Below, in pieces: positions 5,756 through 38,524 of a DNA stretch of 41,835 bases. The stretch is from a virus, in the IMG/VR virus record IMGVR_UViG_3300025426_000055, positions 1 to 41,835 of that record; one strand, 5' to 3'. The first letter of the stretch is position 1, and the number at the start of each line of letters is the position of its first letter. The notes below the pieces were generated by a model. It made no database searches and was not told the DNA's origin. It worked only from the letters and a program-made list of their open reading frames with translations. A program made the position numbers and the translations under genes.

Positions 5756-6460
5756 ATGACCACATCATCACTACGTGCAAAGTCTTCCGTTCCAAACGTA
5801 GACTCTTACACAGTTCCAACTACTACATCTGAAGATGTAGATCTCTTCATTGAAGAGGATGAAGACTTTTCATCTAACAACTCTTCAATTATCCAAACCG
5901 GTTGGGCTTCTGTCAAGGAAGCTTCTGTAAAGAATAGCAAGTATGCTACCGACTTCAAGTTCGATGAGGATCTTCAACTCATCAAGTTCATTTCATCTGA
6001 GCCAATCTCATTTATGCAGCATTGGGTTAACCGTACAGGTAAGAAGTCTTTTATCAGCATCGGTGAAGATGATCCACTAATTGCAGTAGGCAGCGTTCCA
6101 TCTCGTAAGTTTGCTTTTACTGTCCTCAATCTTTCTGACCCTGAGGGCCCACAGCTTGAACTTATGACTGTTGGTATTCGTCTTTGCAAGCAGATCGAGA
6201 AGCTTGCTTCTGATCCTAAGACTGGGCCGCTTAACCGCTCAGACATTTACTACGCTGTTAGTAAGTCAGGTACTGGTACCAAGACTACTCACACAATCGT
6301 TCCTGTAAAGGAGCGCGATCTCGCTGATGATTGGGATATCGATCCAGTCGCTACGGCTGATTACGTCAAGACTCTTAAGCCTTATACCTCTGATGCCATT
6401 TATATGTCGTCAAGGCAGGAGCTTTCTGATGTAGCACGTGAAATTGCCGCTAGCAACTAG
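5756..6460 (+). CDS. Putative single-stranded DNA-binding replication protein
   Basis: A 234-aa protein behind AAAGGAAAA. The N-terminal 50 residues are Ser/Thr-rich with an acidic stretch (FIEEDEDF); the core (about 60-160) is rich in alternating beta-type strands (FKFDEDLQLIKFISSEPIS, KFAFTVLNLSD, LELMTVGIRLCKQI), which would suit an OB-like fold. The assignment rests on fold-like character and on its place immediately before the DNA polymerase in a replication operon. No classical SSB C-terminal tip (DDDIPF) is present. Confidence in the gene is high, in the function low to moderate. Confidence 0.5.
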   Translation: MTTSSLRAKSSVPNVDSYTVPTTTSEDVDLFIEEDEDFSSNNSSIIQTGWASVKEASVKNSKYATDFKFDEDLQLIKFISSEPISFMQHWVNRTGKKSFISIGEDDPLIAVGSVPSRKFAFTVLNLSDPEGPQLELMTVGIRLCKQIEKLASDPKTGPLNRSDIYYAVSKSGTGTKTTHTIVPVKERDLADDWDIDPVATADYVKTLKPYTSDAIYMSSRQELSDVAREIAASN

Positions 6461-6478
6461 TATGTCCCACTAATGTTG

Positions 6479-6513
6479 GGGAGCCGGGTTTTACCTCCTT
6501 TCTACCGGCTCCC
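6479..6513 (+). promoter_or_regulatory. Hairpin with a 16S rRNA 3'-tail-like (anti-Shine-Dalgarno) loop before the polymerase gene
   Basis: A perfect 9-bp stem (GGGAGCCGG 6479-6487 with CCGGCTCCC 6505-6513) encloses a 17-nt loop containing ACCTCCTTTCTA (6493-6504). That string equals the usual 3' end of actinobacterial 16S rRNA, the anti-Shine-Dalgarno. There is no T-run after the stem, so it is not a standard terminator. Its CUCCU could pair with the AGGAG of the downstream polymerase ribosome site (about 6526-6530). It lies in the 74-bp gap between the ssDNA-binding candidate and the polymerase. Confidence 0.6.
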
Positions 6514-6534
6514 TAACCTACTTTCAGGAGAGCG

Positions 6535-8514
6535 ATGAATATTATTACCACAGACGAGCAACTGTCCGAGCTCGTTGAGTACTACCTATTACAAGATGCT
6601 TTTGTATTTGACGTTGAAACTATGGGCGATCACCGTGGAGACCCACGACAGAACCAAGTAGTGTGGATTGCCTTGGCTACTAATGGTCGCGTAGATGTTA
6701 TCCCTATGGGGCACCCTAACGGTGAATACCTACGCACTGAGTACCCTCTGCTTCCTTCTGCCCAAGACCGTATCATCAAGGGTTTACCCCTACGTCCTAG
6801 CGATTACAGCAAGGATGAGCGCAAGGCTACTAAGATTTTTGGTGAAGCCCCTGACCAGCTTATGGTGGGAGAAGTATTTAAGGCTCTAAAGCCTTTGTTC
6901 TTTAGTGACCTATTGAAGATCGGTCACAATCTTAAGTTTGATATCCAAAGCGTTTCAAAGTATATCGGTGGCCTACCTTCTAAGCCTTACGCCTGTACTC
7001 TTAACGCTGCTTTTATCCTAGATACTCGCAATAGCCGTCACCTAGGTTTAGATGACTGCTTGAAGCGCGAGTTTGATTACAACATGGTCAAGGGCGTCGG
7101 TGCTGAGATTGAGGCCCACACCTTTGATGACGTTGCTACCTACGCCGGACTTGACGCAGAGTGGACGTGGAAGCTTTGGAATAAGTACTCTCCTAAGCTT
7201 GACGAAGATAACGTGCGTGGAGTGTTTAGCCTAGAGATGGACGTGCTCTATGTAATTTCTAAGATGGAACTGCATGGTGCGGACATTGATGTAGAGGCTT
7301 TAAAGATTCTTAAGGTAGACCTAGAGTCTCAGTTAGAAACCACTAAGGCTGACATCTATCGTTTAGCTGGCAAGGCTTTTAACATTAACAGTGTTCCTGA
7401 GAAACAAAAACTACTCTTCTCTGCGAAGAAGGACGGTGGTCGCGGACTTCGACCTCGCGTTCTTACCCCGAAGGGCGTCACTAATAGCGAAAACGGTATC
7501 GCTCCCGTTATATCAGACTACTCGGTGTCTGAGCCTGCGCTAAAAGCATTCCAGGGCAAGGATGCTTTAGTTGACGCCCTTCTCAACTATTCCGACTTAA
7601 ACAAGTTGCTTACTACATATGTAATCCCATACTTAGGTGGAGACATTACACGCACTACTGGTGGCAAAGCAAAGACTGTAGCTAAGAAATCTCTGCTACT
7701 CAAGGGCCGGATTCACACAGACTTTATCCAGTATGGTGCAGATACCGGTCGCTTCTCAAGTCGCAACCCTAACTTACAGAATGTGCCTAACCCACGCACA
7801 GCTAACGGAAAAGCTATCCGTAATCTGTTTGTAGCTCCAGAGGGTCACCAGCTAGTAGTGGCTGACTATTCTCAGATCGAGCCTAGAATCCTCTCATCAT
7901 TCAGTAATGATAGGGTTTTATGTCAGAACTATGTTGACGGCGTAGATATCTATACAACCATTGGCGACACAGTTGGAATCACCCGCAGTGGTGCAAAGAC
8001 TTTGGTGCTAGGTATGATGTACGGTATTGGTCCTGAGAAGATCGCTACCTCTATTGGGGTCACTGGACGTGAAGCCAGAGACTTACTAGATAGCTTTGGA
8101 CGCAAGTTTCCTGCTATCTCTCAGTATAAGAGGCGTGTGGTAGCTGAGACCCGTAGGCGTGGTCCTGTTCCGTACGCCCTTACCTACATGAACCGACGTC
8201 GTTATCTACCCGACATGCTTTCCAGGGAAATGGGTAAGCGTGCTAGCGCAGAACGACAGGCGTTTAACACGGTTATCCAAGGTTCCGCAGCCGACCTAAT
8301 CAAGTTGGCTATGGTACGGGCAGAAGGTTTACTACCTGATAAGGCTGCCATGATCCTGACTATCCACGATGAACTAGTCACGGTTGCTCCAAAAGAGATC
8401 ATCGAAGAAACAGCAGCCGCTATTCGTGAGGCTATGGAAGGCATCAAAGCCTTGTCTATCCCTATGCTAGCAGATGTTAAAATTGTAGATAAATGGGGAG
8501 AGGCTAAGGACTAA
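6535..8514 (+). CDS. polA: Family A DNA polymerase (PolI-like, 3'-5' exonuclease plus polymerase)
   Basis: 659 aa. The N-terminal DEDD exonuclease shows FVFDVET (D26, E28), GHNLKFD and YAGLDAEWTW. The polymerase shows DTGRFSSRNPNLQNVPNP, motif A VVADYSQIEPRIL, motif B R484-x3-K488-x3-L492 within RSGAKTLVLGMMYG, and motif C TIHDELV. There is no 5'-3' exonuclease domain, as usual in phage enzymes. The residue equivalent to E. coli Phe762 is Leu492. It should be the phage replicase, working with the helicase, primase and ssDNA-binding candidate. CAGGAG precedes ATG 6535, downstream of an unusual hairpin (6479-6513). Confidence 0.95.
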   Translation: MNIITTDEQLSELVEYYLLQDAFVFDVETMGDHRGDPRQNQVVWIALATNGRVDVIPMGHPNGEYLRTEYPLLPSAQDRIIKGLPLRPSDYSKDERKATKIFGEAPDQLMVGEVFKALKPLFFSDLLKIGHNLKFDIQSVSKYIGGLPSKPYACTLNAAFILDTRNSRHLGLDDCLKREFDYNMVKGVGAEIEAHTFDDVATYAGLDAEWTWKLWNKYSPKLDEDNVRGVFSLEMDVLYVISKMELHGADIDVEALKILKVDLESQLETTKADIYRLAGKAFNINSVPEKQKLLFSAKKDGGRGLRPRVLTPKGVTNSENGIAPVISDYSVSEPALKAFQGKDALVDALLNYSDLNKLLTTYVIPYLGGDITRTTGGKAKTVAKKSLLLKGRIHTDFIQYGADTGRFSSRNPNLQNVPNPRTANGKAIRNLFVAPEGHQLVVADYSQIEPRILSSFSNDRVLCQNYVDGVDIYTTIGDTVGITRSGAKTLVLGMMYGIGPEKIATSIGVTGREARDLLDSFGRKFPAISQYKRRVVAETRRRGPVPYALTYMNRRRYLPDMLSREMGKRASAERQAFNTVIQGSAADLIKLAMVRAEGLLPDKAAMILTIHDELVTVAPKEIIEETAAAIREAMEGIKALSIPMLADVKIVDKWGEAKD

Positions 8515-10382: not shown

Positions 10383-10689
10383 GGGTCAGAAGCAGTCTCT
10401 AAAGCATGAAAAGCGTTTAGAGAAAGTAGCAGGCGGCAAGCGCAACGCCGCATCTGGTGCTTTTTGGTCTCGTAAGGGGGACGTCAGAACAGACGACCTC
10501 CTTATCGAGCACAAGTGGACCGGTAAGAAGTCGGTAACAATCAAGTCAGAAGTACTTGAGAAGATTACCAAAGAAGCAATTTTGGATAGCAGAATGCCTG
10601 TACTGGGTCTGCATCTCGATGGTGAAAACTACGTGGTACTACTGGAGGAGGATTTTTTTGAACTGCGTAACGCAGTAAGAGGTGAGTAG
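10372..10689 (+). CDS. PD-(D/E)XK Holliday-junction-resolvase-like nuclease (first of two)
   Basis: 105 aa, ATG 10,372 overlapping recA by 11 nt. The pattern GKRNAASGAFWSRKGDVRTD followed by DLLIEHKWT has the spaced Asp (GDV) and E-x-K (EHK) of a PD-(D/E)XK nuclease core, followed by a helix (EVLEKITKEAILDSRMP) and a strand (PVLGLHLDGENYVVL). Short basic proteins of this design in actinophages are generally taken as Holliday junction resolvases. Directly following recA supports a recombination role, cutting branched DNA before packaging. Not related at sequence level to the second one at 12.76 kb. Confidence 0.65.
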   Translation: MKSEGQKQSLKHEKRLEKVAGGKRNAASGAFWSRKGDVRTDDLLIEHKWTGKKSVTIKSEVLEKITKEAILDSRMPVLGLHLDGENYVVLLEEDFFELRNAVRGE

Positions 10690-11060
10690 TGCCAAACAAA
10701 TATGACCCGCCATGGACTTGGAGATATGATGCCAAGTGTCGGGGAGAAGATACAGAGATGTTCTTCCCACCCAGAGACAAACATCTATACAAGCCCATAG
10801 CGGATAAGGCTAAGGCAATCTGTTGGGGCAAGGATGGTAGACCTCCTTGTCCGGTAAGAAAAGAATGCCTTAAAGAAGCACTCGTAAACGAGGAGCTTCA
10901 TGGGATTTTTGGTGGACTATCACACCGAGAACGTAATGCGGTAGAACGCAAGATGCGTAAACAAGGTGTCACTCTTGATGAGTGGCTAGAGCTGGAGGGC
11001 AAATATGGCGGGAAAGCCGACGACAATTCCGAGCAAGGATCTAAAGGCGTTTCTAAATAG
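10689..11060 (+). CDS. whiB: WhiB-family regulator with an expanded cluster motif (second of three)
   Basis: 123 aa with a GTG start at 10,689 overlapping the previous stop (TAGTG), behind AGAGGTGAG. C17, C45, C54 and C60 supply four cysteines, and GIFGGLSHRER is the WhiB glycine turn and basic helix. In canonical WhiB the second and third cysteines are CxxC; here they are separated by eight residues (ICWGKDGRPPCPV), a six-residue insertion. The C-terminal tail is longer than usual and acidic/basic mixed. It would sense redox or NO and modulate transcription, if the cluster still assembles. Confidence 0.88.
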   Translation: MPNKYDPPWTWRYDAKCRGEDTEMFFPPRDKHLYKPIADKAKAICWGKDGRPPCPVRKECLKEALVNEELHGIFGGLSHRERNAVERKMRKQGVTLDEWLELEGKYGGKADDNSEQGSKGVSK

Positions 11061-15304: not shown

Positions 15305-15351
15305 AATAGGTCGGTGTAATGCATAATATGTGCATACGCCGACCTATTTTA
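15305..15351 (+). terminator. Long hairpin terminator after the metallophosphoesterase gene
   Basis: AATAGGTCGG (15,305-15,314) pairs perfectly with CCGACCTATT (15,339-15,348); the stem continues inward with one G-U pair and ATGCA/TGCAT pairing. TTTTATT follows. It separates the metallophosphoesterase gene from the lysis cassette. Confidence 0.75.
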
Positions 15352-15361
15352 TTGGAGAGAT

Positions 15362-15628
15362 GTGAGCCAAAACACTATTAATATTTTGCAAGGTATCTCT
15401 GCAGCGATTGCTATTATCGCAGCCGTAGGCGTTATTTTGCGCTGGGTAGTTAAGCACTATCTTTCAGAATTGAAGCCAAACCATGGGTCTTCTCTTAACG
15501 ATAAGATTAACCTGGAGATCATCCCTCTTCTTAAAGAGCTTAGGTCTCATCAGGAAAAGATTGCTTTAAAAGTAGCTAAGCTAGAGGGTCGCTTCGAACA
15601 ACACGTAGACGACGTAGAGGAGCAATAA
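15362..15628 (+). CDS. Membrane protein with one TM helix and coiled coil, holin candidate
   Basis: 88 aa with GTG start at 15,362 behind TTGGAGAG. One N-terminal transmembrane helix (ISAAIAIIAAVGVILRWVV, about residues 12-30) is followed by a charged helical tail (KINLEIIPLLKEL ... KVAKLEGRFEQHVDDVEEQ) predicted to be a coiled coil. It is coupled by TAATG to a papain-fold protein and lies 1 kb before the endolysin, so it may be a holin or spanin-like lysis accessory. A single TM with a long cytoplasmic tail is unusual for a classic holin. Confidence 0.6.
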   Translation: MSQNTINILQGISAAIAIIAAVGVILRWVVKHYLSELKPNHGSSLNDKINLEIIPLLKELRSHQEKIALKVAKLEGRFEQHVDDVEEQ

Positions 15629-25850: not shown

Positions 25851-26311
25851 TGTCAGCGATAATTGCAGTAGAGGGCGTTCTCAAAACTGAGACGGGCGAT
25901 CCTATCCCAGAGGGTATCAAGCTGTTTAGAATTCTTTCAGAGTTCTATCGTGTAATTCTTTCATCTGACATGGACACAGCCAAGACAGAGCATTGGCTTC
26001 GCAGCCATATGATTGTTGGGTATGGCGAAATCTATGATACTAGTACCTTCTTTGTAGGACAAGAAACACGTCTGCGTCATCTAGAGGTAGCTAAGTCTAA
26101 AGGTAAGATTGAGCTCTTTATTGACTCTGACTCAGACTTCTGTGCTGAAGCCCTATCTATGGGCATCCCTACTATTATGTTTGCTTCTCCTCGCTTTGTT
26201 AGAACTATCAGAAATGTTAAGCCGTGGGAAGACCTGCAGGTAGAGGTAGACCGCCAAAAGGACGCAATCCTTCAGGCCCATCTAGGTAGCAGAATTAACC
26301 GATTCGAATGA
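25850..26311 (+). CDS. Degenerate HAD-like protein
   Basis: 153 aa. The fold order follows small HAD phosphatases: IIAVEGVLKT (motif I position), ILSSDMD (motif II-like Ser), a Lys-containing helix (HLEVAKSKGKIELF), then FIDSDSDFCAEALSMGIPT (motif IV acidic residues). The catalytic DxD nucleophile of motif I is VEG here, so phosphatase activity is doubtful; it may be a binding protein derived from HAD. Coupled to the next gene by ATGA. Confidence 0.6.
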   Translation: MSAIIAVEGVLKTETGDPIPEGIKLFRILSEFYRVILSSDMDTAKTEHWLRSHMIVGYGEIYDTSTFFVGQETRLRHLEVAKSKGKIELFIDSDSDFCAEALSMGIPTIMFASPRFVRTIRNVKPWEDLQVEVDRQKDAILQAHLGSRINRFE

Positions 26312-27783
26312 ACCTTATATTCATGGGGGCTGAAGTCCCGTCCCACCGTATCCTTCTCACCAATATGGGTGTTAAGCACGTATCCATTAACTTTTACCGC
26401 CTAGCCAAGCGTGGCCTGCCTAAGACCAAGGACTACCTGATTCAGGGTAGGTTCCCTGACGATGTTAAGGTCTATGTAGATGGTGGCGGACATCAGATCA
26501 ACGATCTAAAGATGACAGAACGGGAGCTGCAGGAATACGCAGACTCTTATTTAGACTTCCTAGCTGTTAATGCCGATAGACTTTCAGGAGCCACAGAGCT
26601 AGACGTCAAGTCTATGGATCAGGCCTGGAACAACTACCACCGTACCCAAGCTCAAGAAATTATGGGAGATAAACTCTGGGTTGTATGGCACCAGGAAACG
26701 GGTCATACCGGCCTCTACAGCCTTTGTGAGCGGTTTAATAACGTCGCTATACTCGGAGAGTCACTAGAGGACGATACGAGCCTGTCAGCACGTTCTAAGG
26801 CCATGTTGAGCCAGTTCCCAGACCTTCAGTTCCATGGCGTTGCCTGTGCCAAGCCGGACAATCTACGCCAGGTAGCTCTATCAACGGCTAGCAGCCTGTC
26901 TTGGCTATCTCCAATGATGAGAGGCGAGACGATTGTATGGAACGGTACAAAGCTAGTCCGGTATCAGAAGAAGCAGAAAGACCAGGCACGTCCTCGCTAC
27001 AAGGCGATCATTGAGAGGGCCGGACTGGACTACGACAAGATTATTAATGATGATAGTAACGAGGTAACCCGCCTCGCTATTTGGTCCTACCTGCAGCTGG
27101 AGAAAGCCTTGGATAAAAGAAGCGGTAAGAAGTTATCTGATAACAGTGAATTTAGGGATGATCCAGGAAGTGCGGAAACAGGGGGTGGACTTCCTGATAA
27201 CAAGCCCTCTGAGGGTAGGAAACTTTTGGCGCAAAGAGACCAAGATGACCGCCAAATCTTGCCTGTATTTGGAGTAAAAACTAAGACCGTAGTTGAAAAA
27301 GACGATGACGGCAGAGATGTAATCAAGGATGTTTCTGTCCTCAGCAGCAGCCCGGTTTCTCTCAGACAATGTGATACTTGCTTTGTGGCAGCAAACTGTC
27401 CGGCCTTTAAGCCGTCCAGCGAGTGTGCTTTTAGCCTGCCGGTTGAGATCAAAACCAAGGACCAGCTAAAGGGTTTATTGACAACTATGATCGAAATGCA
27501 GGGTTCTAGGGTCGCTTTTGCGCGATATGCTGAAGAATTGAACGGTGGATACCCAGATCCTAACACCGGTCAAGAGCTCGACCGACTCTTTAAGTTGGTA
27601 GGGCAAATGAAGGAACTGGAAGAAAATAAAGAGTTCATCCGAATCACAGCAGAGCGTCAAACCTCTGGTGGGGTCCTGTCCCAGCTATTTGGTGACAGAG
27701 CTAACACCCTCCGTGACCTCCCCAACGGTGGCGTGAGTGAGGCTGAATCTAGTAGAATATTAGATAGAGGCCTAAACGGTTAA
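26308..27783 (+). CDS. Unknown 491-aa protein with cysteine cluster
   Basis: ATG 26,308 overlaps the HAD-like stop (ATGA). The N-terminal half (about 1-215) has alternating strands and helices like a TIM barrel: LIFMGAEVPSHRILLTNMGV, FYRLAKRGLPKTKDYL, VYVDGGGHQIND, LWVVWHQETGH, VAILGESLED, LQFHGVACAKPDNLR. The C-terminal half has CDTCFVAANCPAFKPSSECA (C-x2-C-x5-C-x8-C, close to an Fe-S or zinc site) and a helical tail. No family is recognised. Given its neighbours it may act in nucleotide or nucleic acid modification, but this is speculation. Confidence 0.5.
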   Translation: MNLIFMGAEVPSHRILLTNMGVKHVSINFYRLAKRGLPKTKDYLIQGRFPDDVKVYVDGGGHQINDLKMTERELQEYADSYLDFLAVNADRLSGATELDVKSMDQAWNNYHRTQAQEIMGDKLWVVWHQETGHTGLYSLCERFNNVAILGESLEDDTSLSARSKAMLSQFPDLQFHGVACAKPDNLRQVALSTASSLSWLSPMMRGETIVWNGTKLVRYQKKQKDQARPRYKAIIERAGLDYDKIINDDSNEVTRLAIWSYLQLEKALDKRSGKKLSDNSEFRDDPGSAETGGGLPDNKPSEGRKLLAQRDQDDRQILPVFGVKTKTVVEKDDDGRDVIKDVSVLSSSPVSLRQCDTCFVAANCPAFKPSSECAFSLPVEIKTKDQLKGLLTTMIEMQGSRVAFARYAEELNGGYPDPNTGQELDRLFKLVGQMKELEENKEFIRITAERQTSGGVLSQLFGDRANTLRDLPNGGVSEAESSRILDRGLNG

Positions 27784-38437: not shown

Positions 38438-38524
38438 GAAGAAGTCATCATCCAACATACTAGCGTTGAATGTCTCTCCAGAAGAAGTCATCATCCAACA
38501 TACTAGCGTTGAATGTCTCTCCAG
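38438..38524. repeat. Perfect 43-bp tandem duplication at a gene end
   Basis: Two identical copies run from 38,438 and 38,481 (period 43, including GAAGAAGTCATCATCC and GAATGTCTCTCCAG). The unit length is not a multiple of three, so the reading frame of the leftward gene changes inside it. Without the extra copy that gene would read on through DDDFF to NCI and a TAG at about 38,424. Confidence 0.9.

Follow-up and report, generated by a model that had tools for sequence, protein, structure and literature searches.

Why would a phage carry a copy of the 3΄ end of 16S rRNA in the loop of a hairpin, just ahead of its DNA polymerase gene? The question is raised by a viral DNA of 41,835 nucleotides (IMG/VR record IMGVR_UViG_3300025426_000055), the whole of which is called here the window. 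In this DNA ACCUCCUUUCUA, the 16S rRNA 3΄ end, lies inside a 17-nt loop between an SSB-like gene and the gene for a family-A DNA polymerase (Table 1). A preliminary description of the window had reported a perfect 9-bp stem, a loop with the 16S tail and an AGGAG near 6526. All three are in the sequence, where the 9-bp core can be read directly (6479-6487, GGGAGCCGG, against 6505-6513, CCGGCTCCC), and the stem really extends to 13 bp. The hairpin has a folding energy of -26.4 kcal/mol (z -2.7), which was equalled by 2 of 200 shuffles. When both strands were scanned, ACCTCCTTTCTA was found as a single copy in the window, the chance expectation for any given 12-mer in this length being about 0.005 copies. 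The polymerase ATG, at 6535, follows 17 nt beyond the hairpin. The upstream 234-aa gene is homologous to a gene annotated as SSB at the equivalent position in Streptomyces phage LuckySocke, and itself matched nothing in Pfam or PHROG. An intrinsic terminator was considered and rejected, since no U tract is found 3΄ of the stem and the hairpin is absent from terminator predictions. Membership of a known RNA family was also rejected, as no Rfam match rose above the gathering score: with Rfam release 15 a tRNA alone was matched in the window, a local search gave nothing credible, and ten related loci had no match at E<=1.

Table 1. Coordinates of the hairpin, its neighbours and other features, in the window unless a related phage is named
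Feature	Position	Strand	Basis
Hairpin, 13-bp stem (6475-6487 / 6505-6517, one G-U) and 17-nt loop	6475..6517	+	folding; compensatory changes in relatives
Complete loop GTTTTACCTCCTTTCTA	6488-6504	+	sequence
Loop segment ACCTCCTTTCTA, equal to the 16S rRNA 3΄ tail (anti-SD)	6493..6504	+	sequence match
Loop 5΄ half, U-rich GUUUU; length varies among relatives	6488..6492	+	alignment of relatives
Short conserved CCCA(T/C) immediately 5΄ of stem	6466..6474	+	alignment of near relatives
Shine-Dalgarno (SD) AGGAG of DNA polymerase gene, 8 nt 3΄ of stem	6526..6530	+	sequence
Family-A DNA polymerase (3΄-5΄ exonuclease and polymerase), 659 aa	6535..8514	+	Pfam PF00476 4.8e-88, PF01612 1e-12
SSB-like gene, 234 aa, stop 14 nt 5΄ of stem	5756..6460	+	homologue of LuckySocke SSB
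WhiB-family transcription factor gene	10689-11060		Pfam 4.3e-18
Another long hairpin, 14 bp and extension, loop without anti-SD, directly 5΄ of an SD (GGAG) and of the gene at 15362	15305-15348
Queuine tRNA-ribosyltransferase-like protein	26308-27783		PHROG 887, 2.5e-54
Repeat family D1, five dispersed copies of CTGTGGTA(G/A)ACTATTTAATAGAGGG	2228, 4782, 13858, 17741, 23830
Exact 43-bp tandem duplication, inside or beside a minus-strand ORF	38438-38523
ACCGCCCTCC-loop hairpins of related freshwater phages	L224 19109-, L227 11755+, L230 8001+, L238 7652+, L252 2086-, L259 12992-, L260 1240+, L266 10887+	as signed

The copied tail had been called actinobacterial. GGCTGGATCACCTCCTTTCTA is the real 16S 3΄ end in many Actinobacteria (Streptomyces, Microbacterium, Mycobacterium, Actinomarina and others), but it is also a 16S 3΄ end in Firmicutes, Alphaproteobacteria and Planctomycetes, so that the label is correct, yet not specific. 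The host is very likely an actinobacterium, because the phage has a gene for a WhiB-family transcription factor, which is an actinophage marker.

Is the hairpin conserved, and which part of it? A search with the polymerase gave 80 related IMG/VR loci, and with the loci added by further seeds the total reached 145 phage loci with 88 distinct hairpins. Most of the related records are fragments without named hosts. No named phage with a close polymerase was found, the best being Streptomyces phages at 39%, and no relatives were found in bacterial genomes. The evidence is comparative sequence throughout, and the rows share phylogeny, so the counts are not counts of independent events. A hairpin is present at the equivalent position in almost every related locus. 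In the 40 distinct leaders nearest to that of the window, CTCCTTTCT (RNA CUCCUUUCU) is identical in 40/40, whereas 5 of the 8 aligned core pairs have changed on both sides. All 320 cells of these core pairs are able to pair, and the covariation score is 0.387, compared with 0.162 in shuffles (0 of 500 reaching it); the covariation is lost when the partner is slid. The comparison of loop with stem in related phages, which the preliminary description had put forward as a check, was thus strongly positive, the loop being kept while the stem varies with compensation, and this conservation strongly supports its proposal that a loop copying the 16S tail and displayed by a stem is biologically meaningful.

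Across all clades, the 88 distinct polymerase-leader hairpins contain CTCC in 85 cases (in each as CUCC within the loop), CTCCTTT in 65, CTCCTTTCT in 58 and ACCTCCTTTCT in 43. When 3.5 Mb of related phage DNA was scanned for CTCCTTT on the 3΄ side of a hairpin loop, 70 distinct hairpins were obtained, and 61 of them sit at the polymerase start. Permuted cores used as a control gave 0-10 hairpins if they did not overlap the motif, and 60 in the case of the overlapping TCCTTTC. The more distant clades retain a core (CCCUCCUU, CCUCCUCUC or GUCUCCUUUCUCU). Because some clades have the loop reduced to CCCUCCUU or CCUCCUCUC, their hosts presumably being actinobacteria too, and because CUCC is lost in two members, L496 and L505, these alignments indicate that the loop need not always match the 16S tail in full. 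In one group an inner hairpin interrupts the loop, yet CCCUCCCUUCUA is still kept beside the 3΄ arm, and L515 and L516 carry two tandem hairpins with the motif in each. The Streptomyces phage relatives have at the polymerase leader either a strong motif-free hairpin or none, so the position of the hairpin may be older than its loop sequence.

The comparisons also bear on the strand. The core pairs of the nearest 40 leaders include eight G-U/U-G cells and no A-C, and the plus strand folds better than the minus strand in 74 of 85 distinct relatives, which indicates that the functional, conserved molecule is the plus-strand RNA, that is, the polymerase mRNA. A minus-strand reading, in which the loop would hold a perfect SD, was considered for families A and M and rejected, as the plus strand mostly folds better in them and A-C is never found. 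Over 84 distinct leaders the stem starts a median of 12 nt past the upstream stop codon and ends 18 nt before the start codon; judging from ribosome footprints, this spacing would be about right for the stem to stay folded between terminating and initiating ribosomes. In L078 an inserted ORF (2905-2990) separates the hairpin from the polymerase gene; it is small and Cys-rich (TTG start, about 28 aa, ...DYFWIDINGEGHCECDQCKKN).

Does the loop recur elsewhere? A pattern scan found one hairpin 3΄ of a capsid-like gene (L321) and led to its marine relatives, phages with an SU10-type major capsid protein (Pfam PF17236) in which WhiB is absent. The word marine is taken from the sample series of these records, and no named phages with this capsid were found. 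Many members have the hairpin within the 85-95 nt gap 3΄ of the capsid gene, and it consists of an outer and an inner stem, the latter of about 11-12 bp, with a small internal loop between them, and is capped by a loop of 16-18 nt that has CCUCCUUUC on its 3΄ side. When 30 of these leaders were aligned (122 columns, 46% mean identity), the only invariant columns were those of CCTCCTTTC (CCUCCUUUC), retained in 30/30. In 32/35 marine leaders the fold leaves the motif unpaired, and the plus strand is favoured in 30. A second pattern scan, of which 80 of 117 matches were listed, gave at least 69 strong hairpins among these, mostly from the marine capsid family, with the addition of the N group, which comprises WhiB-bearing phages (L636, L650, L658, L660 and others) with the same loop at a different gene. 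The stems of the N group are compensated (GCAGGGG/CCCCTGC, GCGGGGG/CCCCCGC, GCAAGGGC/GCCCTTGC), and the gene downstream is small and SD-less. Finally, in the related phages L214 and L276 a hairpin with the loop ..CTCCTTTCA abuts the 5΄ end of a tRNA-Arg. The loop hairpin recurs independently in unrelated phage groups.

Three further cases were left out of this support. L700 (4040-4100), a single case, has a hairpin with a 16S-tail loop 6 nt past a Mu-gpT-like major capsid gene, with a strong terminator downstream, and was dropped because the hairpin is absent from the seven cultured or named relatives examined. L698 has an 8-bp hairpin with a 16S-tail loop (426-447) between two tRNA-Val genes, within an array of 34 tRNA/tmRNA genes; it is a single case, as is L635.

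What could such a loop do? Our favoured reading, to which we give a probability of roughly 0.4, is that the element is a mimic of the 16S tail placed at gene junctions, where it would be recognised by a non-local partner and would tune translation. We favour mimicry because the 16S tail is the common feature across contexts, and the observations in support are those on structure and strand, on conservation of the loop, on the geometry of the junction and on independent recurrence. Set against the 16S tail in pairing to the downstream SDs, moreover, the loop was equal in 25 of 51 representatives, stronger in 21 and weaker in 5. The phage mRNA would thereby hold a structured RNA element at the junction between an SSB-like gene, likely to be highly expressed judging from its type, and the gene for a low-copy DNA polymerase. 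The long covarying stem would stay folded between the ribosomes that terminate and those that initiate, and would display the loop, a copy of the final 9-11 nt of 16S rRNA. Selection would then act on recognition of this loop as a 16S tail by a partner not encoded next to the element. Candidate partners are SDs at large, or else a host factor able to read the 16S 3΄ end, such as S1, a factor of 30S assembly or a nuclease directed at the aSD. The outcome would be tuned translation at the junction, most simply with the downstream low-copy gene held low. Imitation of rRNA is known from the leaders of r-proteins (e.g. S15, S8, L1), in which an mRNA structure imitates an rRNA site and recruits the factor; these leaders imitate r-protein sites in r-protein mRNAs, whereas here the single-stranded 16S 3΄ terminus would be imitated in phage mRNAs. 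What weighs against the mimicry reading is that the core CUCC is the exact complement of GGAG, as a plain SD-pairing model predicts too, and that the loop is shortened in some clades and has lost CUCC in L496 and L505.

Such a model, repression of the polymerase SD in cis, had been proposed in the preliminary description. A pseudoknot between CUCCU of the loop and the SD AGGAG would throttle polymerase translation, perhaps being released or stabilised by a protein. The arrangement is sterically possible: the SD lies about 10 nt past the stem in nearly all members, and the plain fold leaves the loop CUCC (0.94) and the SD (0.60) largely unpaired. The core kept most often, moreover, is CUCC (85/88), which is complementary to GGAG, and in one subclade (loops GGYGUCUCC, SD GGAGCGY) some members have extended pairing, of -10.8 to -13.7 kcal/mol. 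We nevertheless consider this attenuator unlikely. Over 51 representatives, loops pair no better with their own SD than with swapped ones (-8.21 vs -8.24 kcal/mol, p 0.58), in a comparison of low power, SD and loop varying little. Of the conserved loop, AGGAG can pair with no more than CUCCU, and yet UUUCU, of which the SD makes no use, is equally invariant in the near clade. Moreover, the loop is kept where no SD is adjacent, in L098, in which a tRNA-Arg and another gene intervene, and in 8/35 marine leaders that lack a downstream SD, and the same loop is found beside tRNA genes. In the known leaders with a sequestering anti-SD (riboswitch expression platforms, fourU and ROSE thermometers), an anti-SD stretch can mask the SD, the complement being paired in a helix to its own SD and changing along with it; here, in contrast, the loop is open, tracks 16S rRNA and persists without an SD. 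The SD of the upstream SSB gene, often GAAAGGAG in near relatives and complementary to CUCCUUUC, was rejected as a general partner, since in the L007-L024 subgroup it is replaced by GAAAGAAG while the loop stays as it is, and L078 and L098 are without such an SD.

A generic intercistronic hairpin, serving stabilisation or processing and keeping its pyrimidine loop for an RNase or for mRNA stability, would agree with the strong motif-free hairpins at the equivalent place in the Streptomyces phage relatives and with the presence of another strong hairpin in the window (Table 1). It would not, however, lead one to expect that 9 nt of the 16S tail are copied invariantly in two unrelated families, and we judge it improbable.

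We think it quite improbable, too, that the hairpin is a decoy acting in trans, which, freed or transcript-borne, would tie up SDs or a nuclease or toxin that targets the 16S 3΄ end. Exact 16S identity in unrelated phages would suit this role, as would the hairpins of L214 and L276, which abut tRNA 5΄ ends, where RNase P would release them. Yet in 28 related contigs, searched both by covariance model and by pattern, there is essentially a single copy per phage, which mostly keeps to one gene junction. A decoy present in many copies in one phage was rejected on the same count of about one copy per contig, the weak second matches being unconvincing except for the tRNA-Arg leader of L214. A decoy for Era, whose recognition site we take to include a GAUCA part, was rejected as well, as this part is not conserved in the loops of the relatives. 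Toxins that remove the aSD do exist in Actinobacteria: MazF-mt11 cuts C/ACCU and takes off the last 11 nt, aSD included (PMC12274833), and RelE1 has its cut site just upstream of the aSD (PMC12620021). The base 5΄ of ACCUCC, however, is never C in family A (0/47), so the MazF-mt11 site CACCU is not copied.

An autogenous operator to which the phage's own polymerase or SSB would bind, in the manner of T4/RB69 gp43, is very unlikely: the architecture matches that of the gene 43 operator (PMC3014915) and the loop drifts between polymerase clades, but the same loop stands after an unrelated marine capsid gene and before other genes, equality with the 16S tail is unexpected of an arbitrary operator, and the distant polymerases of Streptomyces phages have a motif-free hairpin or none. 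The gene 43 operator is still among the closest known systems. Its loop and top bases are identical in T4 and RB69 and the size of its hairpin differs, and as in the element described here, the hairpin lies 5΄ of the ribosome site of a phage DNA polymerase, with the loop conserved over the stem (PMC3014915). The T4 operator has the loop UAAC in a short (16-18 nt) hairpin and belongs to a family B polymerase, whereas the present element has a loop copying 16S rRNA, a 13-bp stem and a family A polymerase and, unlike an operator of the gp43 type, is not restricted to the polymerase mRNA, being found also at the SU10-type capsid gene and at other genes. The second close system is the ESAS/SAS of cluster K mycobacteriophages, which are likewise inverted repeats of actinophages immediately 5΄ of a start-associated sequence that contains an SD (PMC3203893). 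A genome has many ESAS copies, in which the 17-bp arms are conserved and the spacer varies (PMC3203893); here, by contrast, the loop is conserved and the arms are variable, and a single copy was found in the window and in most relatives.

Other features of these phages deserve mention. Strong hairpins lie 1-4 nt from tRNA 5΄ ends in L220, L226, L269, L273 and L276, a recurring tRNA-leader architecture. The D1 copies of the window occupy intergenic gaps just 5΄ of genes, the weakest of them, at 2228, being at an ORF end; they resemble extended -10 promoters (TGTGGTAnnnT), and the element is also found 5΄ of tRNA genes in the related phages L220, L269 and L276. Related freshwater phages have a second hairpin with a conserved loop, in which variable stems of 12-14 bp hold an almost invariant 10-nt loop, ACCGCCCTCC; it is terminator-like and occurs once per phage, between genes of about 122 aa and 360-470 aa. 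The window also codes for a queuine tRNA-ribosyltransferase-like protein, and phage proteins of this kind can modify DNA with 7-deazaguanines.

To return to the 16S-tail mimic, 9-11 nt copied from the best conserved functional stretch of 16S rRNA persist in mRNAs of actinophages and of unrelated marine phages, at gene junctions, while their surroundings turn over. It is conceivable, and we propose it tentatively, that these hairpins are an undescribed class of phage RNA element, independently evolved in several lineages, that would serve as a mock ribosomal tail, either in competition with ribosomes for SDs or by titrating a factor that reads the 16S end. A hairpin with CCUCCUUUCU adjoining its 3΄ arm offers a marker motif for finding such elements in phage genomes, and the element could be a natural probe for any protein recognising the 16S 3΄ end, among them the aSD-cutting toxins described recently. 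If the loop is indeed a mock ribosomal tail, these phages would control translation through imitation of the ribosome itself.
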